A stretch of 39,670 bases of DNA, from IMG/VR virus record IMGVR_UViG_3300032182_000282, positions 1 through 39,670 of that record; one strand, 5' to 3'. Shown here in pieces: positions 4,489 through 29,681 of the stretch; position 1 is the first letter of the stretch, and each line of letters opens with the position of its first letter. The position numbers were made by a program, and so were the translations under genes. The notes under the pieces were generated by a model, which saw only the letters and a program-made list of their open reading frames with translations, was not told the DNA's origin and searched no databases. The stretch is from a virus.

Positions 4489-4489
4489 A

Positions 4490-10800: not shown

Positions 10801-13800
10801 CATGTCCAATAAGAACATCAGAGTTGGTTGCAAACCTCATTTCGTTTGAACCAGAGGTTGCAGAAACGGTTAACTTCGCGAAGTATCTTTCTTCGCTACT
10901 CTTGAGAGATTGTAGTGCGAGTGCCCAGTTCTGGTCTCCACGTAGGAAGGTGAACGAGTTTGCCGTTCCACCAGATGCAATAACATTTGCTGGAATTGGA
11001 CCACCAATTAGAGTAGAACCATCGACTGTACTGGAAGTTAGCGATACCCAGTTGTTAGCATCAAACGATGAAGTATTGAGAACTCTGGTTAGAGTTACAG
11101 TCACTGATGGAATATCACTACTCTCAATAGTGTCGTTCTGATCAATTGCGACATTGTTGACAATATCACCGTATAGTCTGCTTTCAATTAGACCAACACC
11201 ACTAGCTTGTGTTCCAGATCCTGGTGGAGCAGAGAATGTGATTGTTGGTGCGGTGGTGTATCCTTTACCACCCTTATAACCATTAAATTCAATAATAGTT
11301 ACGGTAACAACTTCTCCATTAGCAATGGTACAATTTGCAGCTGCCTGTACAGCACCCAATCCAGGGTTACCGCCAGTAATTTGTACTTGGGGTGGTTGTG
11401 TATATCCAGAACCACCGTCAGTGATATTGATTTGGTGTAGAATACCCTGTCTATATTCTGTAGCTTGAATACGACCAGTTGTAATACTTCCTTCAAAGAT
11501 ATCACCAATGGTGAACTGAAGTGTAGGATCTACATTAAATGCCAAGAACAGACTATCAAGATCATTGTTTAGAATGAATGATCTTGTAACGTCCTGTTGA
11601 ATGGCAATGTCGCCAGCAAGTGCGCCTTCTAATTGCAGTCTTTCATTCTGGTCTGCAACAGTATAGACTTCAAAAGGTCTGAGTGCTGGGATCTGGTCAA
11701 TAGAAATCTTACCACTATCAGTAAGTTCAACCAATGCTCTAGGAACAGCGTTCGTGGAATATGGTTTGTTGATGTAAGGTCCAAGGTTGTTAGTGATATA
11801 ATCCTTAACTGCCTTCTGAGTAGGTAGTTTAGAATCAGTGGAGTTAGCGCCACCCAGTGTGTTGGATGCGTCGAAACCAGTAACAACAACGTCACCGCCC
11901 TTCAGTTTCAAGAATTCAACTTCAGAGATAGTAACCGTACCAGTAAAGGTGATAGCACCAGTTCTGTTTTCAATTCTTGCGAATGTACCAACCTTGAAGT
12001 CGCCAAGTTCGTCAGTACCAGAGACATAGACACGACCATAATTTTCAGATACTTGCTCGTTTGCCTCAACCTTTGTACCACCGTTCTCAGGCAGTGCTAG
12101 GTAGTTAGTACCAGAACCTGCAAATTCCCAGGTGTGGGAGGAGGAGTTAACAATAGATGGTCTGTGTAGTCTGATTGTTTGTCCTAGAAGATTTGGAGCG
12201 CCTACAGCAGCCTGATCACTATCTCTAATTACACTCAGTGGATCTCCAGTACCATTGTCGATTGTTAGTGTTGCAGAGAAAGGAGGACCAACAGTAACTC
12301 CAGATACAGTATCAATGAAGAATTCAATATCTTCATCAACGTTGGAGTGTCCGTCAAACTTACAGATATAGTGTTCTAGTGGTTCTCTTCCTAGACCATC
12401 AACGGTAAGAATAGTTCTACCTGTTGGTGTTGCAGAAGCATTTACGACAGTACCAACGTCAAAGGTGTATGCTTCCTCTCTATATCCAGTACCTCTTAGT
12501 GCAAACTGACCGAAGTTTGTAGCAGAGTTGGTGATAGATGCATAACCACCAGATTCGCAAAGAACACCATCAGCACAGAAGATAACGAAGACCGAAACCA
12601 ACTGGGTGTAACCATCTTCAATAACCTTATAACCTGTACCACCAAAGGAGACAATGGTGAATGCAGATGCAACCATCGACTTACCCTGATTGGGGAAGGT
12701 TGCAGAACCATCTAGTTCTAGACCAGGGAATGGGCAGTTGGGTTGCTTGACCTTAGAACCATCAATCAGAGCACCGCCACCACCTAAGAAGGAGATAACA
12801 GATGCGTTCTGTGTATATGGTGATGCTTCAATGATTGGATAATCATCATAGTCACCACGAATTGCCATGCGCTGATTGTTAGCGTCATAGATGTAAGAGT
12901 TTGCATACTCTGTAATCTTAGAGGTATCGAATAAAGTACCGTAGGTCTTGACGGTGCTTCCAGGTTCGATTGCAGTTCCACTAAGAGGATTATCTGCATA
13001 TTCTAGAATTCCATCTAGAATACCCATCGAAGTTGTGATAGATGCTTCTACGTTTGCACATAGAGGATTTCCTGCGGGATCTGCTAGAATAGTAGCATCA
13101 ACAAACTGTGGAATAGGAGAAGATGTAGTTACTGCAGTTCCTGCGCCATCTTTCCATCCACGCATTGCTGCAATAGCAAGGTCTCTTACCTCTGTGTATG
13201 CATATCTTGTTTCAGCTAACTGAGATGCATCGATACCAGAAAGAGCAGTGCCACTATAATATGCTTCAGCATTAGTTACAATGCCAGCATTACCTCCAAG
13301 TACAAGGTCTCTGATTAGACCACCTAGGATATAGTTAATATCTCTACGGCACTTTCTCTGATGGATATCCGTCAGTCCTAGAGAAGGATACTGTGCTTCA
13401 GTATTGATTAGCGCCTGATCTGCAATTAGATCTCTGTTTCTAGCGATTAGATATGCAGCATCTAGATATGTGCCAGAAGCATCGTTTGCAATTACATCTA
13501 CCCAAAGGTATGATAATGTATCAATAGCAGATCTAACATCAGAACAAGATGTACCATCACCAGCAGATCCATCTGCATTGAGGTTAGAAGTAGTTGTAAT
13601 TACGCTATCGTCAAAGTATCTGGGAACTGAAGAATATACAGGAGCATATACGGGATCTGCTGGGAAACCATTGCCAGTTCTCCAGTTGTTGATAGCATAT
13701 AGTGCTAGTTCTCTAGCATATTCAATTGCACGAACTGTTTGAATAATCTCATTTTCAATGTATGCAATCTTTGCTCCAATGATATACTTTTGAGCAGCTT

Positions 13801-16600
13801 CAATTATGTTATGATTAGTTCCAAATTCCAAGTCTCTAATCAGAGCATTGAGGAAGTGAGTTACATCTTGTCTGCACTGTTCATCACCATTTGAACCAGT
13901 GTTAGTTACAGTTGGAGAACTGTAAGAAGGATAGATTTTTTGTCCAGCATCGCATTCAATTAGCAAGTCTGCAAGTTGAACAGTATCATCCTCACTAAGT
14001 GATAGTTCAACATCAGTTGTAACTGTAGCAACACCTGTTACATCCGTATCATAAACAAATCCAGTGACATTAGCAGTAGTGCCACCAAATGTTACTGTAC
14101 CACCACTGACCCAAGTATTTTCATGATCTAGAGTTCCTAAGAAAATGTCAAAAGAAGTACCAGAAACATTGTATACTGAATAATAATCTCTCTTAAACTG
14201 ATCGTTGATTTTACTTACAACTTCATCAGCAATAAACTCTCTGTTATTACGGAGGAAAGTGCAAGCATCTTGATATCTTCTTGCCTCTGGAGTTGAGATT
14301 GGGAATTTGTTTGGAGAGTTAAGTAGCGATAGTGTAATTACTTTCGAGTATGACTTAACAGTCGCAAACTGCCCTGGATCCAGATTTGCATCGTTAATTG
14401 CAGGAGCTTTCTTTGGAATGACAAATCTTCTAGAACGACCATCAGCGTCTTCTAGAACTTTGTAAATTCTCTGTTTCCCCATCAAGAATGATAGGTCTGG
14501 ATTGCTGGTTGGTAAATTAGAAAGTTCAATTTCTTGACCTTCTCTAAATTCGTGAATGTTGTCTCTACCAACCAGAGCATTCGTGTAGAAAACAATACCG
14601 CCTAGGTCTTCTGCATTACCATATAGTTCACTTTGGAAACCACCAGTAGCAATAGAAGCATCACCTTGTAGCGAAAAGTCAATTCTAACAATAGGTAGAG
14701 TTGATGTAACATCTTCGTCAATAGATACAACTTCACCTTCTGCTCTAATTGATTTGAGTGATGTGGTATCAAACTGATTTTCTGTAATGCTAGCTTCAAA
14801 AACATTGATAGTAGCGGATGAAATGCTATCCCAAGATGGAGATCCTAAGATAGGAACAAATGTCACATCCCAGGAAGTTGGAGCATTCTCATCATCAACT
14901 GCTGCTACTTCATAGTATCCTGCAGTAAATTGTGCATCTACAGTATCATCTAGATACACATATGTGCCAGGAAGAAGATCTGCAGTTGGGTTTGTAGTAA
15001 AACGGAGAATATTATTGCCGTTTGTGCTAGACTGTCCAGATAAGGAATTAATCTGATTTCCTTGAGTACCAGATACTAGATATCTGAATTGCTCACCTTC
15101 AACAAAAGAACCAGATGTTAGTTGAACGTCAAGTTTACCGTTGACATATGCGTTTGCACCAGATGTCTCGTCAAATTCTACAAGAGTAACTTTTGCTCTA
15201 GCACCAGTGTTGACACCAATAACGTCAAGTCCAGCGATAAGAGCTGACAGACCAGTGTTCTGCTGGAATATGACACGGAATTGATCTGGTCCAAAGATCT
15301 GATGACCGATTGGGAAATCAACACCAAAGTCTCCATTGACTTCATTATCAATGATGACTTTTTGCTTATCGTCAAAGACCATAGCAAAGTCCCAAGTGGA
15401 GACAGGATCTCCAAGGGAATCAATCTTATCTCTATAAGTTACACCAATGACATAGTTCTTATCACCAAACTTAAAGATGTGCTTTCCTTGATTGTTTGGT
15501 CTGATAATTACCAGACGAAGGTTGTCACCAACAACCGAGCAATCGGGTGGTAGAGAAATGGGGTTATCTTCTACATAGTCACCACCAGAAACAATAATCG
15601 TTTCTTTAACGCCAGGTGTTGACCATGCTAGTTGTGCCGCTTTCTTAATTGTTCTAACTGGGTTTACAGCAGAACGACCGTCGTTTAGGTCAGAACCAAT
15701 CTGCTGTGAAACGTAAATACGACCACCAACGTCATTCGTTGCTAGATTGAGGACGTATTCTGTAGTTGCAATCTTGTCTGATCTATCACCAAGTAGTGGT
15801 GTGATAGATCTTGGGAATACTCCAGCGTCACCTGTTGTGTTATAACCAAATGCAGCCTGATCGTCTACTCTGAAACCAATATGCTTAAATTGAACTTCTC
15901 CGTTTAGTTCAATACCATCTAGGTGTTCTGGTGCCTCGGATCCAGTTTGTCCAGCATTCAATGCTTGATAAACGTTTGCACCAAACCAACGATAACTATC
16001 TTTCTGTAGAATAACTCCAGGTGCCCATTGGATGCCTGTGTTATTAATAAAGGTCTTTAAGTTTGGTCCTCTAAAATTAGTGTCTGGAGTAACAAAGTTA
16101 TCAATATCCAGGTTTAGAATTCTCGCCGTATCAGAAATGATAGACGTGGATGTTCTAATAGCACCGTTGATGTCAAGTTCAAAATCAACAGTATCTAGAG
16201 TTGATGTTGCAGCTGCACCAACTCCATTACCACCAGTGATTGTAACTTGTGGTGCCGTGGTATAACCACTACCAGGATTATTAACAGCGATGTTAATAAC
16301 TCTTCCATTGAAGATAAAAGCGGAAGCTAGTGCTTGTACACCATTTGGTGGTGGATCAATAGTTACAGAAGGAGCACTGGTATATCCAGAACCACCCTCT
16401 GTGATTGTAATTCTGTCAATTCTTTCACCTGTTCTATTAATACCAACACGAGGTAACTGTGTGTTAGCATCAAGTTGAGTTCTCAGGATCTCTCGTTCAA
16501 GAGCACCCGAACCACCTCTAATAGTTAATTCATTATCACCGATGAATTGAGGACTACCTCCTCTAATTTTCTCCTTATCGGAATTAATGTTAAAACTCAT
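7805..16600 (-). CDS. Giant fibre-like virion protein (2931 residues)
   Basis: Parts can be placed approximately. Residues 50-150 hold two GGSGY modules (EGGSGYTSAPSVTI, NPGSGYTTAPQVTI). Residues 290-390 look like a pectin-lyase-type beta helix (GRIYVSQQIGSDLNDGRSA). Residues 770-1155 hold two helical modules with CRQDVTHFLNALIRDLEFG and CRRDINYILGGLIRDLVLGG. Residues 1250-1385 form a second beta-helix-like segment (VISFLGGGGALIDGSKVKQP). GGSGY-type modules return around 1710-2080. Residues 2130-2300 have fibre motifs (SGLDADLLDGAQGSFY, GLDADRLDNKQGVWY). From about 2590 to 2845 there are four GIN/GIG...L.V.G repeats typical of endosialidase-type fibres, without a following peptidase S74 domain. 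It ends MSAGPIEITGNNIVTILDGG. It probably forms a long side or tail fibre; the receptor and any enzyme activity are unknown. The ATG at 16600 has GGAG about 14 bases upstream. Confidence 0.8.
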   Translation of the reverse strand: MSFNINSDKEKIRGGSPQFIGDNELTIRGGSGALEREILRTQLDANTQLPRVGINRTGERIDRITITEGGSGYTSAPSVTIDPPPNGVQALASAFIFNGRVINIAVNNPGSGYTTAPQVTITGGNGVGAAATSTLDTVDFELDINGAIRTSTSIISDTARILNLDIDNFVTPDTNFRGPNLKTFINNTGIQWAPGVILQKDSYRWFGANVYQALNAGQTGSEAPEHLDGIELNGEVQFKHIGFRVDDQAAFGYNTTGDAGVFPRSITPLLGDRSDKIATTEYVLNLATNDVGGRIYVSQQIGSDLNDGRSAVNPVRTIKKAAQLAWSTPGVKETIIVSGGDYVEDNPISLPPDCSVVGDNLRLVIIRPNNQGKHIFKFGDKNYVIGVTYRDKIDSLGDPVSTWDFAMVFDDKQKVIIDNEVNGDFGVDFPIGHQIFGPDQFRVIFQQNTGLSALIAGLDVIGVNTGARAKVTLVEFDETSGANAYVNGKLDVQLTSGSFVEGEQFRYLVSGTQGNQINSLSGQSSTNGNNILRFTTNPTADLLPGTYVYLDDTVDAQFTAGYYEVAAVDDENAPTSWDVTFVPILGSPSWDSISSATINVFEASITENQFDTTSLKSIRAEGEVVSIDEDVTSTLPIVRIDFSLQGDASIATGGFQSELYGNAEDLGGIVFYTNALVGRDNIHEFREGQEIELSNLPTSNPDLSFLMGKQRIYKVLEDADGRSRRFVIPKKAPAINDANLDPGQFATVKSYSKVITLSLLNSPNKFPISTPEARRYQDACTFLRNNREFIADEVVSKINDQFKRDYYSVYNVSGTSFDIFLGTLDHENTWVSGGTVTFGGTTANVTGFVYDTDVTGVATVTTDVELSLSEDDTVQLADLLIECDAGQKIYPSYSSPTVTNTGSNGDEQCRQDVTHFLNALIRDLEFGTNHNIIEAAQKYIIGAKIAYIENEIIQTVRAIEYARELALYAINNWRTGNGFPADPVYAPVYSSVPRYFDDSVITTTSNLNADGSAGDGTSCSDVRSAIDTLSYLWVDVIANDASGTYLDAAYLIARNRDLIADQALINTEAQYPSLGLTDIHQRKCRRDINYILGGLIRDLVLGGNAGIVTNAEAYYSGTALSGIDASQLAETRYAYTEVRDLAIAAMRGWKDGAGTAVTTSSPIPQFVDATILADPAGNPLCANVEASITTSMGILDGILEYADNPLSGTAIEPGSTVKTYGTLFDTSKITEYANSYIYDANNQRMAIRGDYDDYPIIEASPYTQNASVISFLGGGGALIDGSKVKQPNCPFPGLELDGSATFPNQGKSMVASAFTIVSFGGTGYKVIEDGYTQLVSVFVIFCADGVLCESGGYASITNSATNFGQFALRGTGYREEAYTFDVGTVVNASATPTGRTILTVDGLGREPLEHYICKFDGHSNVDEDIEFFIDTVSGVTVGPPFSATLTIDNGTGDPLSVIRDSDQAAVGAPNLLGQTIRLHRPSIVNSSSHTWEFAGSGTNYLALPENGGTKVEANEQVSENYGRVYVSGTDELGDFKVGTFARIENRTGAITFTGTVTISEVEFLKLKGGDVVVTGFDASNTLGGANSTDSKLPTQKAVKDYITNNLGPYINKPYSTNAVPRALVELTDSGKISIDQIPALRPFEVYTVADQNERLQLEGALAGDIAIQQDVTRSFILNNDLDSLFLAFNVDPTLQFTIGDIFEGSITTGRIQATEYRQGILHQINITDGGSGYTQPPQVQITGGNPGLGAVQAAANCTIANGEVVTVTIIEFNGYKGGKGYTTAPTITFSAPPGSGTQASGVGLIESRLYGDIVNNVAIDQNDTIESSDIPSVTVTLTRVLNTSSFDANNWVSLTSSTVDGSTLIGGPIPANVIASGGTANSFTFLRGDQNWALALQSLKSSEERYFAKLTVSATSGSNEMRFATNSDVLIGHEVVNNVTGIQPNTNIDGVLTSGGTTTISLSSTLTSTIPAGTIIEFDRGPSPVQFESTYTQGGYVDSIVIANGGVGFTDGQYFDQQLLGGTGTGLRANITVSGNTITDVTVTDGGTGYTADFNVISAPTDIGAGSSMVLAAKLSTVNKQFANVSIDVARVTDLTVSADLFGTIGVSRFKKSQFDIGTEGNGSVTLKTGADSGLDADLLDGAQGSFYLNATNLNSGTVNPDRLAGTYNISISGSSANTIRLITGTNNPTSNPSPNNFVEGIIANTVNNAANGLSDGGSKNLALTIRNGGQGFDTTYGGVRQLAFTDNDNMWIRGSGTGVTTFGSWYKIWSSGNDGVGSGLDADRLDNKQGVWYQNALNVNYGTLSDERLPRFISATSIRDDITIKSFNGDPRYQIYISGRVLNASPFTPGNTVNLYNAQTQGTGQFTIDNVIINDEADSFADYTILIGRLTTGNFIGAITIGTSVVREPFQDFSIEPGNTIDVAKLESDSGTGNLRLGRTDGVASSPGLYFNSSAVAANYNVALVAAGGNGTDGSGTLNVQVINADGFTINSNQVWNAGNITFQSANVVNTAVKRDAVGNFSAGTITAALNGSASNNVLKAGDTMTGSLILSGTSASLTVGGTTTLQSTLSVSDDLSVGADGQTEVIFVDVSTKRLGINTGSAPMAPLEVRGDGGIVVRTAANAPSTGARIRFSDHQSGNYAQQGTIRYNHSDGATPNSDYGEVFNVEGTETELAFKVTGDILASRNIGIGINRQPTYTLEVNGSVYTKDGITIDDAADNSGAPVVFRGSSSFKNFRIGNQLVADDLFTIQASTSNGAVDWNSTPAITIIGSTNRVGINTTTTTVNSVDMQLNVEGNINMNGNLYQNGDPFVTSRWTESTTGGNIYRISSVGINQADPDYTLHVNGSSNFIGASFGTTTASASNNNNDTAMRVMGDRQYIDTYGVMKANRNTIAENVTVPANTNCMSAGPIEITGNNIVTILDGGAWSII
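13140..13472 (-). repeat. Helical module copy 2 in the 2931-residue protein
   Basis: This about 110-residue unit starts LDAAYLIARNRDLIADQ, continues with KCRRDINYILGGLIRDLVLG and GNAGIVTNAEAYY, and ends VRDLAIAAMRGW. The same order occurs in the preceding unit and twice in the giant protein encoded at 31621-39670. Function unknown. Confidence 0.75.
13670..14290 (-). repeat. Helical module copy 1, split by an insertion
   Basis: It starts YQDACTFLRNNREFIADEVV, is interrupted by a beta-rich insert of about 80 residues, and resumes with QCRQDVTHFLNALIRDLEFG and later ARELALYAINNW. The insert is the feature that separates it from the other three copies. Confidence 0.65.
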
Positions 16601-16646: not shown

Positions 16647-17150
16647 TCACTGCCAGGCAATACTCACTACTTGTGCAGATACTACCCATTTGATATTATT
16701 AGTTGTACCAGCTCTGAGTGTACTGTAACTAAATGTATTTGTACCACCAGTCAATGGTTCAATAGACCATGTTTGACCTACTGGAATGTCATCTTTAATG
16801 ATAGTGTTTAGACTTGACAATACACTTACCAATCCAGAATTGTCACATAAAACCGCACTCTCTATCTTTTCTGAATATACTGTGCCAGACTGATTAACTC
16901 CAATAGCATGTCCTGTGATATAATTTAGAGTATTGATTTCAAGAGGAATTTGAGATCCTACATCATCAATCTGTAGTACCGCAGTATTCAGACCACGTAA
17001 AATATAATGAGATACTTTACTGTCTGCATAGAACGAGTTCTTAAGTTCTAGAGTGTTGATGTCTTTTGCATTTCTATCTTCATCGATAACGATTGTTTTA
17101 TCGATAGAAAATCCACCAACTGAATCAAACTTTTCTAGTGATGTTGCCAT
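16647..17150 (-). CDS. 167-residue virion-type protein, unknown function
   Basis: I do not recognise a defined family. The product starts MATSLEKFDSVGGFSIDKTI and is mainly beta-rich, with regular hydrophobic/polar alternation, and ends NIKWVVSAQVVSIAWQ. It lacks a signal peptide, membrane segment or glycine modules. It begins one base after the stop of the 1407-residue gene (TAA A ATG), with a GAAGAAG Shine-Dalgarno-like stretch that overlaps the last codons of that gene. The position between two large fibre-like genes suggests a small structural subunit or connector that is made with the 1407-residue protein. A C-terminal fibre fragment separated by gene fission is another possibility. Confidence 0.7.
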   Translation of the reverse strand: MATSLEKFDSVGGFSIDKTIVIDEDRNAKDINTLELKNSFYADSKVSHYILRGLNTAVLQIDDVGSQIPLEINTLNYITGHAIGVNQSGTVYSEKIESAVLCDNSGLVSVLSSLNTIIKDDIPVGQTWSIEPLTGGTNTFSYSTLRAGTTNNIKWVVSAQVVSIAWQ

Positions 17151-17151: not shown

Positions 17152-20100
17152 TTACTTCTTCGTTATTTGGGAAACAATTTTGATATCAACGTCTTGAGAT
17201 GTTCCTACGTTATCACCAACCGTTAGGTTTACTCTTGCAATATTTGTTGCAGTAAATTCAAACGTAGTAGAGAACAACTGTACTCCTGTTCTGATATTTC
17301 CATATTCTGTATGGTAAATGTCAGTGCCATCATCAGTTAAGAAATATTCTGTAACTTCTCTGTCACCAGTCACATTGTTAATTGCTGTAATCATTACTTT
17401 AGAAGAAGCTTCTGTAGAACCATCATAGCAATTGAAAGATCCAATATCTACTGTATCTTTCACAAGTTCTACAATTCCACTTAGAATTCTATAATCAGTA
17501 AGTTCAAAATCTTTCAATTCAGAATCGAAGACCTTAACACCGTTAAAGTTTCCTGTACCAAATCCAATATTAAAATACACATCACCTGCATTATCTAGTC
17601 TTAATACAGGATCAACAGTTAATCCAGCAGAAAGACCAATGTCAAAATATTGCTTACTAGTATGTAAGAATGTTGATGCTGTATCTGTATTATCTAGAGT
17701 TGTATTACCACCAGCAAATACAATTGTATCAGCATTGATTTCTAATTCATTTGTTACTGGACTGTTGATAACATCAACTCCTCTAAACTCCAGAGCGGAT
17801 GTCGTTAAGTTTAGAGTATTGTTTCCATCGTTGTAGAAGAACAGTGTGTTCTCATTTGCTCCAGGAGAAGTCTCAGGAATAATATATGTGTTCTGATCAA
17901 TGTCTTTAACACCACCAAGAGATCCCCAGTTAGTTCCATCATAACCTTCATATGTGAAAGTTGTTTGGTTGAAACGGATAGATCCTTGAACTGCAATTCC
18001 TCTATCTGCAGTTGTTCCAGTTGGAATTGCAATAGAAGTGCTTGAAGAGATAACAGTTTTTTGACCAGGGTTTGGTCTGATGACCAAATCACTTACATCA
18101 GTTGAAATTGTATTTCCAACCAATCTCAGATCACTGCTGATTACAAGAGGAACATCAATATCAGGACCAATTCTTAATTCATTGATCTCCTCAAATATTA
18201 GATTATCAACAGCTGTTGTGTTATACTGAAGTGTAGATGTGCCATTGGAGAAGACAGAACCAGATGTATCATTTGGTTCTTCACCAGCAGCACCAGTAGT
18301 GCCAGTGGTAATTACTTCATAGATATCATGACCAAATTTTAGATAATCGCCTGCAGTAACAGGAGTGCTAGATGTCCAATCAGTATATGCTGGTGCAGAA
18401 AGATTTGGCGATCTTACTTTCTTAACTCCTTCAAACTCTAGATAGAATGGACTTAACTTGAGAGTGTTAACTGCATCATTGTAGAACCAGAAAGTATTGT
18501 CATTGCTACCTACAGTTTGTTCAGCAGTAACATAAGTATTACCATCTAGATCTCGAATACCACCAAGAGAAGTCCAACTTGCTGTTTGACTGCTGTATCC
18601 TTCATACTGTGTAGTATCTGTATTGTATCTAATTTGACCATCTGCAGCAAATCCAAGTGGAGGTCTTGCAGAAGTAGAACCAGCGGGAATTTGAATGGAT
18701 GATGTTGCATTGACAACAACACTCTTTCCTGTATCTGGAGTTAAGATCAGATCAAATCCAGCAAACGTAGCAATGTTTGTATTTGTAATGGTCAAGTAAC
18801 CATTTACATTCAACTCATTTGTTGTCTTAAGTACACCAGATGTAGTAAAGTTACCAGTGAGTGGAATAACTTCAATAGTTGTTGCACCCAAAGGACCATA
18901 ATAAACTTGACCAGCATCAACTCTGATGTTGCCCAGTCCTGCTTCCATAGCGAATGAGTTTCCGCTATTTGGACCAATTAAATCAACGTTTAGGGTATCA
19001 GCGATTGATAGTGGAGTGGTAAAACTAGTGGATGCTGCTCCAGTCTCTGTTAGTGAAGTTGTACTATTTACAGCACCAACAACATTAAAGCTTCCTGTAT
19101 TGCTTGCTGAAATAATTGTCTCGGATCCAACACCTGTAACAGTGATCTGTGCATCAATCTGATTGCCAGAAAGATTAAGTAGATCTGCAACTAGTGCTTC
19201 TCTGTCTAGGTTTAGAACATCACCGTTGAAGTAATCTCTACCACCATTAACAATTTCGATACTGCCAATAGATCCTTCTTTTGTGATCTCAAATTCAAAT
19301 CCGTTATCTCCACCATAAGTTCCAGGATCTGCTGGAAGGAATAACTTATCTCCAACTACATAACCAGAACCATAATTGGAGAAAGAAATATTTGAGATAC
19401 CTCTTCTATTTGAAATACGATATTGGAAACCAACACCATATCCTCTAGTAATAACATTTGAGAATGTTAGAATATCACCTTCTACATACCCACTACCAGC
19501 AACTGTTTCAACAACATCAGTAATAGTACCAATGACATTGACACTGGTGAAGTTTACTGCAAGACCAGAACCAGTTCCGCCAATGTTTGATGGATGAACA
19601 GTAACATTGTCATTAGCTTTCCATCCGCTTCCAGGTTCTGTTACGGTAAAACTAATTACGTTACCATTTGCATCGACATCAACATCTGCCAACATATCAA
19701 AGATATAACTTCCAGTTCCACCAGGAAGCAATCCTGCTTTTACTGGTTCTCCATACAGTCCTATAGTTGGAGTTAAGGAAATGCCAGACAATCCAGCATC
19801 TGTAGCTGTACTATTAAGAACTAAATCAGTGTATGATCCAGCACTTCCTGGTGTACCATATGCAATAGTTCTTGCTTCTGTTGTAACAATTGAGATGCCA
19901 AATTCATCTAGAATTCCAAGTGTGTATCCAGCATTACTAGCATCTGAAGTATCAAATCTATAAGTACCACCTGCACTGAAAGTTAGAGCAGTAGTAGTAA
20001 TTTCTGATCCATTTCCTTGATACTGGAAAACACCAGAAAGATTTTTTGCAATACCAAAAGCACCAGCACCATCACTAATTTCTTCATTAACATTAAAAGT

Positions 20101-21375
20101 TCCAGTAACACTGGTGAAGTACATTGCTGGTTGCTCATCATCAAATGATGTAATTGTTCCACTTCCAGAAGCAGAAGTTACAGTAGCTCCTGCAGCAAAT
20201 TCTGTAAATGGATTATCAATTAACTCAATAGTACCACCCATTGCTGAGTGATTTTGACAAGTATAGTAAATCGTTCCTGTTAGATATTCTGATGTATCGA
20301 AAACGATAGTGCCATTATCAGTACCGTTGTTGGTAACACCATCTTCTACTACTAGTACACTAGATGCATCATAACCACCAGCAGCACTCTGGATCCAGAA
20401 TGGATGTCCTGGTGAGTTCACATTGATAGTAATAATACTACCTTGTGCTACGCTAATGGAAATGTCATTACCACTAGTTGAGATAGCATTTTGTCCCGTA
20501 AATACGTAATCTGTAGCAAGACCATCATCAGTTACATTCCACTCATACAATCTACCATACACAAAGTCTAGTTTCTGTCTACTAACAACAGTTAGTGTAG
20601 TGGTAGAAGATGGAATATTATCTACGGCAACACTAGTATATGTTCCCTCTGTATATCCAGTACCAGCGTTGGTAATTGTATTTTGAATATCAACAGAACC
20701 AGTGACGGTGATATTAGCAAATTTGCCACTGCCAGTTCCGTTGACAAGTTCTACATTATTATAGGTTCCTGGATAGTAACCAGTACCAGCATTATCAATA
20801 ACACCTTTCGTTGCAACTTCTAGCGTAACGATATCGAAACTCATCAGAGCATTGATACCACTATAATCAGTGGTAACAGGGATGTCTGTATATGATCCAG
20901 TAGTATACTCGTCTACATTACTATTGGCGGTTACAATACCGTCCCATGGCACAACAGTAACGTTTGCTGTTGCCTGAGATCCGCCACCACCAAAGATAGC
21001 AACATCAGTGTAAACACCAACATCATATTCAGATCCACTTTCTGTAATCGTTACATCTGCTGTTTCGAGGAATGTCTTCTCAACGAAAAAGTCTCTAGCA
21101 AATGTTGTACCAGTATCAGCAAACGAGACAATCAGATTTTCGCTACTAGTAAACGAGAAAGTCTTGTCTTGTCTTTTGAATAGACCTAAACTTGTGTCTG
21201 ACTGGAATGCCAGCGACGGAGATGCTTTGGTTCCGTCTTGAATTGTAATGGCACTTGGAGAGATAGTTGCTCCCCCAGAACCACCTGTAATCTCAAAGAG
21301 ATCAGAAGCGATCAGATTAATTTTGTCCCTTTGTTGTTCAAAGGTATCTGTTCTTGCTACACTAATTGCTGGCAT
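17152..21375 (-). CDS. Virion structural protein with embedded cupredoxin-like domain
   Basis: The product has 1407 residues. The N terminus (ARTDTFEQQRDKINLIASDL) is a common start of cyanophage structural proteins. Residues 110-260 carry AGTGY/GTY modules (NAGTGYYPGTYNNVEL, NAGTGYTEGTYTSVAV). Residues about 272-387 form a cupredoxin-like domain with H324, C373, H376 and M379 in the order of a type-1 copper site. A second, degenerate copy follows at about 452-545. Residues 560-740 contain more GSGY modules. Further on, two copies of a segment with RPPLGFAADGQIRYNTDTTQ and IAVQGSIRFNQTTFTYEGY are typical of fibre shafts. The C-terminal 150 residues look globular. The ATG overlaps the preceding 68-residue gene by 14 bases. 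A tail or baseplate fibre role is likely; copper binding is a prediction. Confidence 0.8.
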   Translation of the reverse strand: MPAISVARTDTFEQQRDKINLIASDLFEITGGSGGATISPSAITIQDGTKASPSLAFQSDTSLGLFKRQDKTFSFTSSENLIVSFADTGTTFARDFFVEKTFLETADVTITESGSEYDVGVYTDVAIFGGGGSQATANVTVVPWDGIVTANSNVDEYTTGSYTDIPVTTDYSGINALMSFDIVTLEVATKGVIDNAGTGYYPGTYNNVELVNGTGSGKFANITVTGSVDIQNTITNAGTGYTEGTYTSVAVDNIPSSTTTLTVVSRQKLDFVYGRLYEWNVTDDGLATDYVFTGQNAISTSGNDISISVAQGSIITINVNSPGHPFWIQSAAGGYDASSVLVVEDGVTNNGTDNGTIVFDTSEYLTGTIYYTCQNHSAMGGTIELIDNPFTEFAAGATVTSASGSGTITSFDDEQPAMYFTSVTGTFNVNEEISDGAGAFGIAKNLSGVFQYQGNGSEITTTALTFSAGGTYRFDTSDASNAGYTLGILDEFGISIVTTEARTIAYGTPGSAGSYTDLVLNSTATDAGLSGISLTPTIGLYGEPVKAGLLPGGTGSYIFDMLADVDVDANGNVISFTVTEPGSGWKANDNVTVHPSNIGGTGSGLAVNFTSVNVIGTITDVVETVAGSGYVEGDILTFSNVITRGYGVGFQYRISNRRGISNISFSNYGSGYVVGDKLFLPADPGTYGGDNGFEFEITKEGSIGSIEIVNGGRDYFNGDVLNLDREALVADLLNLSGNQIDAQITVTGVGSETIISASNTGSFNVVGAVNSTTSLTETGAASTSFTTPLSIADTLNVDLIGPNSGNSFAMEAGLGNIRVDAGQVYYGPLGATTIEVIPLTGNFTTSGVLKTTNELNVNGYLTITNTNIATFAGFDLILTPDTGKSVVVNATSSIQIPAGSTSARPPLGFAADGQIRYNTDTTQYEGYSSQTASWTSLGGIRDLDGNTYVTAEQTVGSNDNTFWFYNDAVNTLKLSPFYLEFEGVKKVRSPNLSAPAYTDWTSSTPVTAGDYLKFGHDIYEVITTGTTGAAGEEPNDTSGSVFSNGTSTLQYNTTAVDNLIFEEINELRIGPDIDVPLVISSDLRLVGNTISTDVSDLVIRPNPGQKTVISSSTSIAIPTGTTADRGIAVQGSIRFNQTTFTYEGYDGTNWGSLGGVKDIDQNTYIIPETSPGANENTLFFYNDGNNTLNLTTSALEFRGVDVINSPVTNELEINADTIVFAGGNTTLDNTDTASTFLHTSKQYFDIGLSAGLTVDPVLRLDNAGDVYFNIGFGTGNFNGVKVFDSELKDFELTDYRILSGIVELVKDTVDIGSFNCYDGSTEASSKVMITAINNVTGDREVTEYFLTDDGTDIYHTEYGNIRTGVQLFSTTFEFTATNIARVNLTVGDNVGTSQDVDIKIVSQITKK
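19740..20020 (-). other. Degenerate second cupredoxin-like repeat
   Basis: The segment with ALTFSAGGTYRFDTSDASNA and then YTLGILDEFG has the strand pattern of cupredoxin-like domains in marine phages, which usually read SGHPL at the ligand position. Here a tyrosine (Y484) replaces the histidine, and the C-x-x-H-x-x-M strand is missing. It should not bind copper at such a site. Confidence 0.5.
20217..20560 (-). other. Cupredoxin-like domain with type-1 copper ligands
   Basis: Within the 1407-residue protein, SPGHPFWIQ supplies H324 and YYTCQNHSAMGGTIEL supplies C373, H376 and M379. Spacing between the first His and the Cys is 49 residues, near the 47 of plastocyanin, and Cys to His is 3 in both. 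His to Met is 3 here against 5 in plastocyanin. The domain is flanked by structural beta modules, so it is part of the fibre and not a separate electron carrier. Confidence 0.7.
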
Positions 21376-21577: not shown

Positions 21578-24500
21578 TTAGAATGCAGCGACTGCTCTGA
21601 TATCTTGTACTTTTGGTACAATTGTTGGATCCTTACCCTTCATGATAATCTTGATAGCAAACGAAGAGAATTCGGGTAATTCTGCAACACTATAAGTGAT
21701 ATCTTGATATGCAGATTGCTTTTCAAGAACTCCAGAAGCACTGTTTTCAGGAGATGCAATTTCTAGACTATCTGGTTGACCATCTTCATTGAAGTAGATC
21801 CAATCGATGTCATCGAAGTTCTCCTGACTAGATGCATTCTTGAACTTATAAAGAACTTCTACATTCTCAGTTTCTTTTGCATTTAGTGTCAAGTGTACAT
21901 TGATTGCAGTTGCTGGACTGCTAATTGTTACTTCCTTAGTTACATATTTTGCAACAGAAGAAGAATTCTTAGAGGCATCATCTGCAACATATTCAACGCC
22001 ATTCTCATAAGTAACTTTTGCTACTTCGAGGAATGTTACTTCTTCATCTGGTTGGTTAGGATATGAGATAATATCACCAACACGGAAGATATCCTTTTGC
22101 TGATCTTCTGTATCAGCTTGTCTAGCAAAGAATGTGCTATCGATAATTCTTCCTGTATAATCATCATTGATAGGTCTCGTATCATTTCTGACAGATGCCT
22201 TTCTGGTTTCTTTATCCCAAACAACAACCTTACCACGAATTACGTTATCGTAAATTTCTAGAGGTACGGATGGATTTCTTGCTGTCAGAACCTGAGCGGT
22301 ATTTAGTGTGATTGGTAGAGCAGCTGGTGTTCCGCCAACCGTTCCGCCCGTGATTGTAGTCTTTTGATTTTCAAAAACAAGATCTTCACCATTGATGAAT
22401 ACTTGCTTAGTCTTAAGTTTGATGGTGATTGTATTATCTGCTACTTTAGCAATAGTTCCTAGAGCACCAGAACTTACACCCTCAACTTTTTGATTATTGA
22501 AAATCTGTACACCTTGTGTACCGCTAACCGCAAACTCATATAGTGGGAAGAATTCTAGAACTTGATTTCTTCTACCATATCTGTTCTCACTACCAGTAGC
22601 ACTCTCAATTCTGTTAGAGATAGTCTTGACACTTGCTGTGGAAAGATCAATTACTGGAGATAGATACGAAACATTAGAAGTGAGATCAAACTTATAAGTT
22701 AGTGATCTATCTACATCGTTTAGAACTTCATTGATCTCAGAAGCAATAAACTTCTGATTGGTGAAGTAATGGGGTTCATTCAAGAAAGTCTTTTCATAAT
22801 CACTTTGAGAATATGAAGTGTAGTTAGTTGTTGTAGAATCTACAGGAATAACATTGGTTGTTCTGACCATGCTAGCAATCTTTGTCTGTGAGAAAGATAA
22901 GTATTGCATTTGTGGATATAGAACCTCATACTTTCTGTTGTAGGTTCCGTATACAATGTCACCACCACCAATAGAACTTGTAGCAGCAGAGATTTCAGAC
23001 ACTACATCATACGTATCAACGCCACTATTTGTTACTTGGAATAAAGTTGTATTCAAGATATCAGCAGTGATACCACCTGTGGACTTTGCACCCTTATAGA
23101 ATACATAAGAGTTGCCACTAGTCTCAAAACCATTATCTCTGTGTCTTACTTTGATAACCTTATTGTTATTTCTGAAGAGAGTAGCAGTTGCATTTGAATC
23201 TGATGCACCATCAGTCTTGAATGGGTTCAAACCAAGCAATTCGTATCCTAAGTTCTCTGTTGTTAGTAGAAGTTCACATGGTCTGTCGATCTGGAATTCT
23301 GCTCTGTATAGAGTAAACTTGAGATCTTCAAAAATATCCTCAGTCCAGTTATCGACATTCTGTGATCTGTATACAGAACCAAGAGATGGTTGAGTTGTGA
23401 TGACTGTGCTGGTTGCAACATCAATCTCACCTAGTTTAGATGACCATAGAGCGTAGTCAACAGAATCAGTCTCAACAGTCAATGCATACTCAGTATCATT
23501 CTGTAGGTATACAGGATGCTCGAATGCGAAGTGTGTTGGAACAGTAGAAGCGGTTAGACCCTCCTGGTCTACAGCAACACCCATTGTTACTGCAGGAGTA
23601 TCGAACTCAATCACTGTCTCTACTTCACAACCACCAGCACCATTACCAATGCCCTTGATAACAACAGATGGTGCTTCGGTATATCCAAATCCGTTGATTG
23701 ATAGATTGATGTTGTAAATCTTTCCTCCAGATACCTGTGCTCCAGCAGTTGCAACAGAACCACCAGGAAGTTGTGGACTTTCAACAGTGATAATCGCATC
23801 ATCATAATTTAGACCAGGATTTGTAATCTTGATCTCAGAAACCTTACCACTATCTTTAGCAATAGTTACAACACCAGACTTACCTTCTGTATTGTTAGCA
23901 AGAACAACAGAAGGAATGACTAACGTTTCATTTGGACGGAATGCTCTTCCATTATGGTTCTCAAGAACCATGGTATATACTTGCTCGTTTGTTAGCAAGA
24001 ACCTACCAGTAGACGATGGAACGAGATCAATACCATTCTTATCAATAATCTTAAAGATAGGACCACTTGCAGCAGAACTAGATCCTGTTACATTTTCTCC
24101 TTTGGTTACGTAAACATTTGAGTTTACAAAGAACTTCAAGAATGTAAATGGAGATAGAACTTTCTCTGTTCCTGGTACAATATTCTTTCCAGGTTTGTCA
24201 CTATCTACATTTGTAAGATATACTCTGATAGGAATAGAGTTACTCTTAGACTGGAAGAACAGATCAACACCAGTAGTAAACATACCACCATCATAGTTTT
24301 CAACCTTAAAGGTTTGTGCTAGTGGATTTGGTCTAATTGGGTTTTCTGTGTTACTATCAACAAACTGAACACCTTCGTTTGCTTTGAAGAACGATGGTTT
24401 TGTAGAGATGATAGTTGCAGGGTTCTCGGGAAGAATACCTGTTGCATAGTATTTGACTTCTGCATAGGTATCTACATTCAACTTATCTTCGTCAGTGGGA

Positions 24501-27500
24501 CTAGATGTAAATCTAAAGGTCTTGATGCCAGTAGTTACATTGTACTCTTCGGAAGTTTGATCATATGCAACAGTAGCAACATCACCAGTCCAAGGTGTAT
24601 TCTCTCTAGGAGCATATCCAGCAGGAACAATAATGATACCACTAGCATCACCATTCTCATTGGTTACCACTTCTCCATTGAAAGCAGATAGAGAGTTACC
24701 AGCAATGCCAGTAAATCTCAAGTCAGGATTAACCCAACGAGAAATATCTCTTCCTTCTAGGAAGACAGAGATTTTTGTATTAGGCTTCAGTCTTCTAACA
24801 ACAAACTTGACTGCTTGACTTCTAGCAAAGAACTTAACAGAATCTGAAACATTGTTTCCTCTGACACTCTTAACTTGGACACCCTTGGCAACATCATTGT
24901 TTACAGGGCTAATATTAGAAGAGCTGCTAGTAGAGGCAATGCTAATTTCAGAAGTAACGCTATCAGCATTAGTGTTGCCGAGAGAATTGATAGAAGTGAA
25001 TGAAGGAGCAGAACCAACCCAGTTGACAATAAATGAATTATAGAAACTTGCAAAACTTTCCTTTACCTCTGGTTTCGCTAGGAAGATAGTATACAGATCT
25101 GTATTAGTATCTACGATTAGGGGTTCTTCATTTTGATCATACCATTGATCAATACTTGGAGATAGAGATGCATCTCCAACATACTGAAGAACAACGAATG
25201 GATTTGGATTTAATGTGCTGGAAGCAAAATCATTACCAAGAACTTTTAAGTTGCTGTATGGTAATGTAATAATGTCTCCTGACTTCTTATATCCAGAAAC
25301 AACACGCTGGTCATCTCTAACATTGACTTCTCTTAGTCTAAATGAATCTTCTTTGGTCTGTGGTCTTAATACAGACTGTTGTGGATCAACAGCACACTGA
25401 TAATCAAGAGATTGGAGATTACCAGATCTATGAGCTTCAAAGTTATCTACGATAAATCCACTCTTAAATCTATCAAAACCAACTTCATCTTTGACTTGCA
25501 TGTTTAGAGCTTGTTGCTCAAGGATGCTTAGCGTGGTATAATACTCAAGGCGTTCAATACGCTTCTCTAGTTTACCGATGTCACGCATTGTGTAACGACG
25601 GTTGTCAACTGGAGTAATTCTTACATCCTTACTTGTTTGAGTATATGCAGGAATATATGCATAGAACAGAGGAACTGCATCATCAATTGGATCTGGTTTT
25701 GTTGGGTTGAGTGAGGAGTTGCCTTCCTTGACTAGGAACTGACCCTTCTTATTTAAGAATACACCGTCAATTCTGTCAAGATATTCTACCTGACTGAACG
25801 AGATGCTAAACTCTAGATTTACATCGGGTGCAGGTGGAGCAGAAATTACAGAACCTGCAGATGCAAACTTACCTCTGGTAATAGAGAGACTAGATTGATC
25901 TTGGAAACCAGGGACAACTGTCGTGTTGTCTACTTTTGGTCTAAAGTCAATAACGTTCTTGAGATTTACGTTACCATGTACAGTTGAGTTGAATGTTGGG
26001 ATCTCATCTTCAGTAACACCCGAAGCATGGAGATAACTATCAATTGTACAAATGTCACCTTGAGAATGCTCGAAGTAATCAAACGCAATTACTAACTGAC
26101 CATTGGTTGGTTCAAATCCTGGTTTGAGAACAATACGAGACACGTCATACACAGTGTCTCTCTGACCATTGTCAAAGGTAAATCTATCAGTTACATCTGT
26201 TCCTTCTACAAGGTTACCTGCGGCGTCAACAACTGGAGGTTGTACAGACGAACCCTCGTATACATACGCTAGCTTATAAGCATCGGAATATGAAATGATA
26301 TCCACTGCATCGCTATCGTAATCATTTCCTCTGAATGGAATTACTCTATCACCAGAAGATGTGACTACAATTCTCTTAGAGACAGATGTCTTAAGTCTTG
26401 GTTTTGCATTATCAACTTCCAAAGTAGAAGTTAGTTTTAATTTAGGGAACGTTCCATTTTCGGGAATAGTTCCAAAGTAATCCTGTGGAAGTTCTAGACG
26501 AATGGATCCAGAGATGAGACCACTAGCAGTATCTGTAGAAGAAGTTGCAATGACATTATCTGGATTGATGTATACAATATCTCCAGCAACCAGTTTTGTA
26601 GAATCGCCTGGATCAAGTACAGTTACAATGAAGTTGTCTTCTGTGAACGTGACAAACCTCTGTGTACCAAATGGTAGGTCTGCCTTAAATGTTAAGATAC
26701 CACCACCTGAAGATGCTGTTGTGATAAAGTCTCTACGGATATAGTATTTGATTTTACTATCTTCCTGACTTGCAACAATCTTATTGATCTGTCTGCTTCC
26801 TGTTGGGAATACAAGAGATCCAGATGCAGAATTTTTAACCTTGCAGCGGAGACGAACAATACCAGCGTTTACAACATCAGCAAGTAGAACACTATCTAGA
26901 TAAATTCTAGTTTTGAATGATCCTTCCTGAGGAGTTGCATACTGAACAACAGAACGAATAACATTGTTGTCTTCATCAGCAAACTGTACAACGTCACCTT
27001 GCTGTAGAAGTTGAGTAGCATCAGCATTGAAACTAGTACACTCAACAAAATTGGAACCTTTAGATCCAAAGAATGTAAAATCAGTAACACTAGTAATCTC
27101 TGATAGAAGTCTATCATCTGTTACTACATCTGCAGTAAACTTGTTAGCGTTACCAGAACCATATCCAGCAGACAGTGACTTGACGTTCTGTGCTGTATAG
27201 GTAGTTACACTATCTCTGAATAGAACAGGTCTTACAACCGCTCCAGACGTTGCTGCAGGAGATCCTTCTGGTTGTTTGACTGTGACTGCAGGTGGTTGAG
27301 AATATACAGTGTTAACCGCTTCTCTATCAGTAATATCAACTCTAACTACAAAGTCGTTACCAAGAACATCAACATTGATTTTATCTCTACCAAAATCAAC
27401 ACCATTGACGAGAAGAGTTGCATTTTCATTGTATCCAGTACCACGATTAGTTACAATGAAGTGAGAAATAGTACCATCTAAACCGATACGTGCAGTATTC

Positions 27501-29671
27501 TCATCTTCATCTCTAATTGTTTCTCCAGATTTAAATCTTCCAGACAAAGTTTTTACGAACAACTGTCTGCCATATGAATATACTCCAGATGGAGCACCTT
27601 CAATAACACCATATGCTCCAGTAGTGAGACCGAATACATATTTTCCGATTTGGAAAGTTCCTGGAACAGGTTCTCTTTCTAGTAGGATCTTGGTGAAGAA
27701 TTCTGGATCAAAGTACGATACGCCAAATACAGCATTATAATTTGCTTGTCCAGCAGCAGATCTACCTCTGGAAAGAACAACATCAGCATCTTGATTAAAT
27801 CCAGATCCTCTCTTCTCTAGGTAGAAGTTATTTGGTCTTGCTCTACCAACGACTGGTGTAATGGTTTCGCCGTAATCAATGATGTTACCATATCTCGAAG
27901 TGTTTGCTCTTGCCTGTGCTTCTGTCAAGTACAGACTTCTTTCACGAGAGAACTCAGAATTTCCATCATCATAGGTCAAAAGGATCTTCTCAGCAATATC
28001 CTTTGTAGCAACTACAGTTAATTCTAAGTAAGTTGCAGTTGCACTAAACTCTGGTTTGATAACCTTAGCATATGCCAAAGACTTGACTGTACCAACCTCT
28101 GTTACTGTACCATCTAGTGCTCTGGTTTTTACAAAATACAGAGTTCCAATATCAGTCTGGAAATTGCTATCATTTAGTCCTGTTAGAGGATTTGTCGAAC
28201 TATCAACATCAAGGGTGATAGTTTTGATTGCATCGTTGGAATCAAAAGCAAGACCTCTTCTATTTACTGTTTGCTTAATTGCATCAGTTTCTTCTTCATC
28301 GTTAAGACCAATAGATCCATCATTGAATACCTGATGAAGATATAGATCTGGATATGCGGTTAGATCAGCACCCTCTTTGTTTACAGGAACACTACCATAG
28401 ACATTCTTTACATTATAAGTTGGTAGACCTTTTAGTTTAAGTGTCTTATTGTCACTACTCAGACTTTCTCTTGCTTTGTTGAGTTCAAGATACTTAGTCT
28501 CTTTGTTGACAATCTCATATCCTCTAATGTAAGCTTTACCAGGACCAACGCTGGCAATCATTTTTCTAGATGCTTCAGTAACATCTAGTCCGTTATAAAG
28601 ACCAAACTCATCAGCAGCGTAGAGACCTCTGTTTCTATCTTTCTGCTGATATTCTCTAATTTCAATATTAAAATTATCTACAACATAGTCACCACTCTCA
28701 TCATATGTTCTTCTTGCTAAAGTTTGCTCTAGAAGATTATAATCAGCAGGCGATACCTTTCTCTGTACATTTCCTCTTAGTACAGTGATTAGTTGAATAA
28801 AGTTTTTATCAGTAGTCTCATTAAGTTCAAACTCTTTCAAGTTGAGACTAATTTTTAGTCTGTGTGCTCCAGGAGCAGTATAGTTTGAAGATCCGATAGA
28901 ATTATCGTATAGACTTGCGTCTTCTTCTGGAGTTACAATAGTTTCGGAAATAGTAAAACCAACCTTTGCAGATGGTCTATCATAATACTCATCAATTACT
29001 AGTAACTGCTGATCATTTCTTACAAAGTAACCATTTACAAAGTAAATACCTTCTTCTACTTTAACAGCAGAACCATATCCCATAGCGGGACTTTCGATTG
29101 CAACTACATCTCCAGTATCTGGATTTGTGACATCAATGCTAGTTGGTAGAACACTACCATCTGTTCCTACGACAAGAAGTGGTGTATTGACACCATCAAC
29201 AACCTCTAGTGTTTCGCCCTGTCTAAAAGTAACGTTAGAATTAGAATCGCCACTGTTTAGATAATTAACAAATACAGTGTCTGCGGAAGATGGTGTTGCA
29301 AGACTAACCTCAAGAATTGTTGCAACAACGCCAGAACTGAGACCTTTTAACTGTCTTCCGATTAACTGAGTAATGTCATATTTCTTATAAACAATATCAT
29401 CTCCCTCAGAGATTGCAACCTCAGAGACAGATGATAGTTTAACGAAATCTAATTTGGTGTTTAGACCTACTTCTCCAGGGACAACTAAATCTCCCTGCTT
29501 AAAAGCATACTTACCAAAGCTTTCAATCTGATTTTGTAATACAGACTGAATTTGTGTTAGTTCTCTACTCTGGATAGCATATCCTGGACGGAATAGGAGT
29601 TTGTAGAAATTCTTATTCGCGTCGAAATCCTCGTAGTAAGGATTTACATTAAGGTTAGTCTTTTGTGGCAT
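21578..29671 (-). CDS. DUF4815-type giant virion protein, baseplate region
   Basis: The product has 2697 residues from ATG at 29671, with GGCGGAGA directly upstream. A slightly longer frame begins with TTG at 29683 and is less likely. The N terminus (KTNLNVNPYYEDFDANKNFY, then LLFRPGYAIQSRELTQIQS) is the DUF4815 signature known from phage structural proteins. The long middle part has beta-rich repeats including NRGTGYNENATLLVNG and NGFGYTEAPSVVIKG. A collar-like segment with AFEHPVYLQNDTEYALTVET precedes TLYRAEFQIDRPCELLL at about 2090-2150. The C-terminal domain (VAELPEFSSFAIKIIMKGKD) is compact. Its position behind gp8 is where T4 has gp9, gp10 and gp11, so it may take over their baseplate or fibre-anchor roles, but I see no sequence match to those proteins. 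Confidence 0.82.
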   Translation of the reverse strand: MPQKTNLNVNPYYEDFDANKNFYKLLFRPGYAIQSRELTQIQSVLQNQIESFGKYAFKQGDLVVPGEVGLNTKLDFVKLSSVSEVAISEGDDIVYKKYDITQLIGRQLKGLSSGVVATILEVSLATPSSADTVFVNYLNSGDSNSNVTFRQGETLEVVDGVNTPLLVVGTDGSVLPTSIDVTNPDTGDVVAIESPAMGYGSAVKVEEGIYFVNGYFVRNDQQLLVIDEYYDRPSAKVGFTISETIVTPEEDASLYDNSIGSSNYTAPGAHRLKISLNLKEFELNETTDKNFIQLITVLRGNVQRKVSPADYNLLEQTLARRTYDESGDYVVDNFNIEIREYQQKDRNRGLYAADEFGLYNGLDVTEASRKMIASVGPGKAYIRGYEIVNKETKYLELNKARESLSSDNKTLKLKGLPTYNVKNVYGSVPVNKEGADLTAYPDLYLHQVFNDGSIGLNDEEETDAIKQTVNRRGLAFDSNDAIKTITLDVDSSTNPLTGLNDSNFQTDIGTLYFVKTRALDGTVTEVGTVKSLAYAKVIKPEFSATATYLELTVVATKDIAEKILLTYDDGNSEFSRERSLYLTEAQARANTSRYGNIIDYGETITPVVGRARPNNFYLEKRGSGFNQDADVVLSRGRSAAGQANYNAVFGVSYFDPEFFTKILLEREPVPGTFQIGKYVFGLTTGAYGVIEGAPSGVYSYGRQLFVKTLSGRFKSGETIRDEDENTARIGLDGTISHFIVTNRGTGYNENATLLVNGVDFGRDKINVDVLGNDFVVRVDITDREAVNTVYSQPPAVTVKQPEGSPAATSGAVVRPVLFRDSVTTYTAQNVKSLSAGYGSGNANKFTADVVTDDRLLSEITSVTDFTFFGSKGSNFVECTSFNADATQLLQQGDVVQFADEDNNVIRSVVQYATPQEGSFKTRIYLDSVLLADVVNAGIVRLRCKVKNSASGSLVFPTGSRQINKIVASQEDSKIKYYIRRDFITTASSGGGILTFKADLPFGTQRFVTFTEDNFIVTVLDPGDSTKLVAGDIVYINPDNVIATSSTDTASGLISGSIRLELPQDYFGTIPENGTFPKLKLTSTLEVDNAKPRLKTSVSKRIVVTSSGDRVIPFRGNDYDSDAVDIISYSDAYKLAYVYEGSSVQPPVVDAAGNLVEGTDVTDRFTFDNGQRDTVYDVSRIVLKPGFEPTNGQLVIAFDYFEHSQGDICTIDSYLHASGVTEDEIPTFNSTVHGNVNLKNVIDFRPKVDNTTVVPGFQDQSSLSITRGKFASAGSVISAPPAPDVNLEFSISFSQVEYLDRIDGVFLNKKGQFLVKEGNSSLNPTKPDPIDDAVPLFYAYIPAYTQTSKDVRITPVDNRRYTMRDIGKLEKRIERLEYYTTLSILEQQALNMQVKDEVGFDRFKSGFIVDNFEAHRSGNLQSLDYQCAVDPQQSVLRPQTKEDSFRLREVNVRDDQRVVSGYKKSGDIITLPYSNLKVLGNDFASSTLNPNPFVVLQYVGDASLSPSIDQWYDQNEEPLIVDTNTDLYTIFLAKPEVKESFASFYNSFIVNWVGSAPSFTSINSLGNTNADSVTSEISIASTSSSSNISPVNNDVAKGVQVKSVRGNNVSDSVKFFARSQAVKFVVRRLKPNTKISVFLEGRDISRWVNPDLRFTGIAGNSLSAFNGEVVTNENGDASGIIIVPAGYAPRENTPWTGDVATVAYDQTSEEYNVTTGIKTFRFTSSPTDEDKLNVDTYAEVKYYATGILPENPATIISTKPSFFKANEGVQFVDSNTENPIRPNPLAQTFKVENYDGGMFTTGVDLFFQSKSNSIPIRVYLTNVDSDKPGKNIVPGTEKVLSPFTFLKFFVNSNVYVTKGENVTGSSSAASGPIFKIIDKNGIDLVPSSTGRFLLTNEQVYTMVLENHNGRAFRPNETLVIPSVVLANNTEGKSGVVTIAKDSGKVSEIKITNPGLNYDDAIITVESPQLPGGSVATAGAQVSGGKIYNINLSINGFGYTEAPSVVIKGIGNGAGGCEVETVIEFDTPAVTMGVAVDQEGLTASTVPTHFAFEHPVYLQNDTEYALTVETDSVDYALWSSKLGEIDVATSTVITTQPSLGSVYRSQNVDNWTEDIFEDLKFTLYRAEFQIDRPCELLLTTENLGYELLGLNPFKTDGASDSNATATLFRNNNKVIKVRHRDNGFETSGNSYVFYKGAKSTGGITADILNTTLFQVTNSGVDTYDVVSEISAATSSIGGGDIVYGTYNRKYEVLYPQMQYLSFSQTKIASMVRTTNVIPVDSTTTNYTSYSQSDYEKTFLNEPHYFTNQKFIASEINEVLNDVDRSLTYKFDLTSNVSYLSPVIDLSTASVKTISNRIESATGSENRYGRRNQVLEFFPLYEFAVSGTQGVQIFNNQKVEGVSSGALGTIAKVADNTITIKLKTKQVFINGEDLVFENQKTTITGGTVGGTPAALPITLNTAQVLTARNPSVPLEIYDNVIRGKVVVWDKETRKASVRNDTRPINDDYTGRIIDSTFFARQADTEDQQKDIFRVGDIISYPNQPDEEVTFLEVAKVTYENGVEYVADDASKNSSSVAKYVTKEVTISSPATAINVHLTLNAKETENVEVLYKFKNASSQENFDDIDWIYFNEDGQPDSLEIASPENSASGVLEKQSAYQDITYSVAELPEFSSFAIKIIMKGKDPTIVPKVQDIRAVAAF

Positions 29672-29681
29672 GGTCTCCGCC

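Follow-up and report, generated by a model that had tools for sequence, protein, structure and literature searches.

A predicted type-1 cupredoxin domain in a structural protein from the baseplate region of a T4-like marine cyanophage

The cupredoxin fold and the type-1 copper site are already known. In plastocyanin, the copper ligands H37, C84, H87, and M92 follow the spacing H-x46-C-x2-H-x4-M, and the ligand loop of amicyanin reads CTPHPFM. A type-1 copper protein is also known from T4-like cyanophages, namely the plastocyanin encoded by petE (T4-GC 225; PMC3037559), and a metal has been proposed for the tail fibers of marine phages, where HxH motifs would hold iron for siderophore receptors according to the Trojan Horse hypothesis (PMC11705849). 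The domain described here lies in a 39,670-nucleotide stretch of viral DNA (IMG/VR record IMGVR_UViG_3300032182_000282), the whole of which is hereafter called the window. With the plastocyanin/azurin family (PF00127), and especially with amicyanin, it shares the cupredoxin beta-sandwich, the order His...Cys-x2-His-x2-Met, and the length of the amicyanin loop; unlike these small soluble carriers, it is embedded in a 1407-aa virion protein, and its first ligand stands in a GHPF context instead of the usual H-N of blue copper proteins. petE differs in being a separate photosynthesis gene of the kind found in the host, outside the virion protein. Like the HxH motifs, it is a proposed metal site in a marine phage tail protein, whereas those motifs concern iron and fiber-trimer histidines without a cupredoxin fold.

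The source of the window is a T4-like marine cyanophage. The 1407-aa protein (17152..21375, minus strand) matches PHROG 6005, "virion structural protein," with an E value of 0, while a Pfam scan of the whole protein returned no family. Upstream lie a 2701-aa protein (21578..29683, minus strand; PHROG 358), whose orthologues are annotated as a "virulence-associated" structural protein, a DUF4815 protein, or a baseplate wedge initiator, and a gp8-like baseplate wedge subunit (29751..31559, minus strand; PHROG 438, PF09215). Downstream are a 167-aa virion structural protein (T4-GC 512; 16647..17150, minus strand), assigned by PHROG 5449 and synteny, and a 2931-aa tail-fiber-like protein (7805..16600, minus strand; PHROG 5342). 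Orthologues of the 1407-aa protein occur in S-CAM4, Syn1, S-PM2, S-RSM4, ACG-2014e, and ACG-2014h, with the labels T4-GC 829 in S-PM2, 1069 in Syn1, and "similar to T4-GC_350" in ACG-2014h. They are flanked on one side by the "virulence-associated/baseplate wedge initiator" gene and a small ORF and on the other by the 167-aa virion protein and then the tail-fiber-like gene, and the gene order in the window is the same. This position of the orthologues places the 1407-aa protein in the baseplate region. The initial annotation had proposed a copper site in a domain of a fiber: the cupredoxin fold, the maintained type-1 set, the virion-type structural protein, and the beta-rich neighboring segments all held, but the word "fiber" is less secure, since the orthologues are named "virion structural protein" and sit between baseplate-type and tail-fiber-type genes. 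Judging from gene order, "baseplate-region structural protein" seems to fit better. Its status as a virion protein comes from the annotation of the orthologues; virion proteomics has been published for S-PM2, Syn9, and S-SM1 (PMC3037559). Another viral contig (L001) encodes a 1407-aa protein identical to that of the window at the protein and codon levels and probably represents the same virus. Elsewhere in the window (3868-5609), three neighboring genes encode 2OG-Fe(II) oxygenase-like proteins (PF13640, PF13759).

The domain spans residues 272 to 387 (20215..20562, minus strand) and is supported by the hidden Markov model (HMM) of its relatives, by AlphaFold2, and by VIA. Its ligands, all on the minus strand, are His324 in the motif GHPFW (20404..20406), whose counterpart in alignments with azurin-type proteins is the His of MGHNF/MGHNW, Cys373 (20257..20259), His376 (20248..20250), and the axial ligand Met379 (20239..20241). 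The four residues are thus where they had been reported, and the earlier description of their spacing as nearly that of plastocyanin was fair: the order is H-x48-C-x2-H-x2-M, with a ligand loop, CQNHSAM, as long as the amicyanin loop and two residues shorter than that of plastocyanin. Cys373 is one of only two cysteines in the protein, the other being C1316. Taken by itself, the ligand motif is only suggestive. When the loose pattern H.{35,60}C.{2,4}H.{2,4}M was run against shuffled versions of all the window proteins, 0.042 matches were expected and 3.4% of the trials gave at least one, against a single match observed, and no further H-C-H-M motif of this kind was found in the genes of the window. 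It is the conservation in relatives, together with the predicted fold and consistent sub-threshold matches to blue-copper HMMs, that raises the motif far above chance.

Relatives were collected from several sources. A single-domain search of viral contigs gave 18, and an alignment-based search raised the number of candidates to at least 493, from which 80 loci were retained. The scan of bacterial genomes, with a pattern search based on alignment A1 because alignment A2 was too diverse, yielded 66 loci, mostly from marine Bacteroidota and Alphaproteobacteria and none from cyanobacteria; the plasmid records searched for the domain gave no match. The HMM built on the relatives recognizes the window domain with 118 bits (i-E 1.8e-37, residues 277 to 387). 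The His, Cys, His, and Met are each kept in 94 of 95 distinct full-length viral domains, the lone exception lacking all four. Also conserved are several glycines, the P-F that follows the first His, and a Tyr two residues ahead of the Cys. Because the search patterns contained GHPF, conservation of the first His is partly by construction; the Cys, second His, and Met lie outside those patterns.

When viral and bacterial domains were pooled, the whole His-Cys-His-Met set was present in 182 of 192 distinct domains, including 180 in which the four residues align and 2, from S-RSM4 and ACG-2014e, which keep the set although a long insertion misaligns the first His. Among these 182 motif-bearing domains, 181 have the spacing C-x2-H-x2-M. 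Four aligned exceptions (NSSF, QSSM, HSSM, and TSNQ) have lost both the Cys and the second His, and the remaining rows are truncated or poorly aligned, apart from S-PM2 with C..Q. A metal site would be expected to lose its Cys and second His jointly in this way; four fold residues that vary independently would not. Between the window and three orthologues (L002 to L004), the ligand codons vary only silently, as with TGT/TGC for the Cys and CAC/CAT for the second His. Computation on the aligned sequences thus shows a complete and selectively maintained type-1 ligand set. In S-PM2, the sole copy detected (L168:3593-3694) has lost the ligand His (CATQ) and would offer copper measurements a naturally occurring negative control.

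The AlphaFold2 model of the domain, computed with 13 family sequences, has a pLDDT of 90.7, a pTM of 0.84, and eight strands, which agrees with the Greek-key beta-sandwich of seven to eight strands that characterizes the cupredoxin superfamily. In this model the first His precedes strand 4, the Cys ends the penultimate strand, and the second His and the Met lie in the loop that leads into the last strand, a predicted placement consistent with the standard type-1 arrangement. A Foldseek search of the PDB returned cupredoxin domains of nitrite reductase, rusticyanin, plastocyanin, laccases, and azurin loop variants, some of which carry seven-residue loops (CTPHPFM and CAAHAAM) of the same length as that of the window; the TM-scores were moderate (0.5 to 0.6), and the unrelated SO1698 was also among the matches. 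In the VIA alignment, the best 50 rows were all cupredoxin proteins (Z 9.3 to 10.8), the best of them being the N-terminal cupredoxin domain of copper nitrite reductase (Z 10.8, rmsd 2.1 over 94 residues). The best structural matches include rusticyanin, the N-terminal domain of the three-domain nitrite reductase of Hyphomicrobium, and the domains of two-domain laccases (Z 9-11, rmsd 2.1-2.6, 93 to 98 residues), which, unlike the phage domain, are enzymes or soluble carriers, with 9 to 17% identity. The structural comparison suggested at the outset therefore gave a confidently predicted cupredoxin fold whose top matches are type-1-site cupredoxins, plastocyanin among them. On the strength of this model, residues 272 to 387 are a genuine predicted cupredoxin domain, with the canonical order of His-Cys-His and axial Met conserved across the family, as in type-1 sites.

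Known blue-copper families are approached from several sides. The isolated window domain scores 14.3 bits against PF00127 (E 0.054, model positions 17 to 97 of 99), below the cut-off of 21.2 bits. The NCBIfam models for amicyanin, plastocyanin, and rusticyanin match 8, 7, and 4 of 37 family members, with a best E value of 5.8e-5, and none of the NCBIfam blue-copper models matches the window's own domain; for amicyanin (TIGR02657), the shared loop length and the 8 matches therefore indicate likeness, not membership. Plain plastocyanin membership was rejected, the site being Cys-x2-His-x2-Met in a 1407-aa protein versus Cys-x2-His-x4-Met in a small soluble carrier. A phmmer search of PDB sequences with the single domain returned nothing relevant, and the profile of the relatives brought up blue-copper proteins with E values of 0.01 to 1. 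In profile alignments with four bacterial proteins that score above the PF00127 cut-off, both azurin-type proteins match the family at the His and the Cys, a third is aligned over His-Cys-His-Met, and the fourth over C-x2-H-x2-M. We accordingly file the domain, from its sequence, as a putative type-1-site cupredoxin outside the curated families. Two family members (L084:5917-6255 and L008:3783-4088) also gave matches to PF25489, a plant At5g54830-like model, with E values down to 1.2e-5, and another member reached 4e-6; where shown, these matches stay below the cut-off, and they may connect the family with a eukaryotic domain.

The claim that similar segments exist in marine phages was right and even understated. 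Matches to the window's domain occur in 108 phage records; for a related domain the number is 336 of 50,697, nearly all from marine Synechococcus and Prochlorococcus phages. All 19 phage records searched in more detail gave one or more matches at E <= 0.01; 13 of them had been picked for carrying the domain and six (S-RSM4, S-CAM4, Syn1, S-PM2, ACG-2014e, and ACG-2014h) solely because they encode an orthologue of the 1407-aa protein. The same domain stands at the end of gp9, the connector between baseplate and fiber (phrog_677), in 36 of 37 members, and it also occurs in tail fiber, tail spike, and protease-like structural proteins. In gp9, all four ligands are present in P-SSM4, Syn19, S-SM1, S-RIM8, S-RIM2, P-SSM7, ACG-2014a/b/d, and P-TIM68; the host protein is different, the stretch between first His and Cys is mostly shorter than in the window, and the annotations examined contain no description of a cupredoxin. 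In the ten cyanomyoviruses checked (L180, L181, L182, L184, L185, L186, L188, L189, L173, and L174), the ligand Cys is the sole cysteine of gp9. The T4-GC 399 gene that follows gp9 contains a further H...CxxHxxM cupredoxin-like segment with a long insertion (L182:2929-3132; same place in L180, L181, L186, and L189), and in the baseplate gene that follows gp9 in ACG-2014d (L173:5000-5700), such a segment is immediately preceded by a YHYH-like motif (DGYPIYGPYG).

Within the 1407-aa orthologues themselves, the slot at residues ~250 to 365 is occupied in S-CAM4, Syn1, and ACG-2014h by a divergent cupredoxin (HPLxF...CxxHxxM) and is empty in S-RSM4, ACG-2014e, and S-PM2, where a relative sits further along the protein. 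In the window protein, residues 446 to 530 (19786..20040, minus strand), next after the live domain, probably form a degenerate cupredoxin of the divergent type without ligands: profile comparison with the B-type cupredoxins of the orthologues gave a probability of 98.5%, the Cys and second His are missing, a Tyr takes the place of the first His, and the structural model is of low confidence (pLDDT 57). Since dS was saturated in the orthologue comparison, ratios were left aside and dN alone was compared, which gave 0.146 for the live domain versus 0.381 for its ligand-less neighbor with L002, 0.286 versus 0.722 with L003, and 0.372 versus 0.702 with L004. In the tree, viral and bacterial domains are interleaved; its well-supported branches require three or more switches between the two, and many forks are unresolved. 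Some of the bacterial relatives consist of this domain alone, as small exported proteins or lipoproteins, which is how cupredoxins usually occur. Computed from these sequence comparisons, the domain behaves as a mobile module of cyanophage baseplate and tail genes.

Several readings of the conserved site have to be weighed. A coincidental motif in an unrelated beta module could appeal to the chance of about 1 in 30 of finding the motif alone in the window, but it is effectively refuted by the conservation over 192 relatives, the confident cupredoxin fold, and the blue-copper profile matches, and we give it hardly any weight. A site for another metal such as zinc, or a metal-free Cys-His-Met cluster kept for fold stability alone, would suit a fold that is able to persist without its ligands, and virions are assembled in a copper-poor cytoplasm, with copper scarce in seawater. 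Ordinary fold residues should, however, be lost singly, whereas here the Cys and second His go together, and a set completed by an axial Met is that of type-1 copper, which makes this reading improbable. On balance, the predicted site probably holds copper.

What such copper would do is a separate matter. It might shuttle electrons or react with reactive oxygen or sulfur species at the host surface, for instance as an attachment trigger or as a protection, and the ligand set is indeed that of electron carriers, rusticyanin and a T1-containing nitrite reductase domain are among the best structural matches, and two bacterial relatives (L102 and L125) have nearby genes with CxxCH heme motifs. Most bacterial relatives nevertheless lack a cytochrome neighbor, their gene neighborhoods show no consistent redox partner, neither a redox partner nor a docking surface was identified in phages, and the domain behaves like a module for display that recurs in structural genes unrelated to one another; we thus regard such chemistry as unlikely, and a physiological electron-transfer role as equally doubtful. 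By analogy with the iron of tail fibers, a metal-uptake receptor at the host surface could instead recognize the copper-loaded domain. The published HxH precedent (PMC11705849) and the location of the domain in baseplate and tail genes speak for this possibility, but a buried type-1 site would be a poor metal donor, and we hold it to be less probable still. A role in display or contact, with copper stabilizing the site, stands at about even chances.

The explanation that we favor overall, with somewhat better than even confidence, is an intact type-1 site in a movable baseplate-region module that is displayed for contact and loaded with copper. We propose a model in which the domain would be carried on the outside of the baseplate or tail apparatus as a beta-sandwich module, presumably exposed at the virion surface, where it could contact the medium or the host surface. 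The apo-protein would fold in the host cytoplasm, and each copy would take up one copper ion in the mature or released particle. Copper would then lock the Cys-His-Met loop and so fix the exposed contact surface, and the bound ion would probably be redox-active too. More tentatively, and on balance doubtfully, marine T4-like cyanophage particles in general could be copper proteins whose baseplates display several type-1 domains, on gp9, the adjoining GC399 protein, or the window protein, with copper serving host contact or a redox switch of infection.

We found no description in the open-access literature of the place of this domain in a virion protein, of its absence from curated blue-copper models, or of its spread in marine cyanophages; InterPro may already tag it as cupredoxin superfamily. 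If the reading is correct, a domain now filed as unknown or within tail-protein families would receive a name, and the proposal could be tested simply through the copper content of purified particles of cyanophages already in culture. Should these sites contain copper, metalloprotein particles would be found among the ocean's most abundant viruses, carrying a redox-capable metal where the virion meets its host. Infection would then be tied to the copper chemistry of seawater, and the idea of iron in phage tails would be widened to copper.
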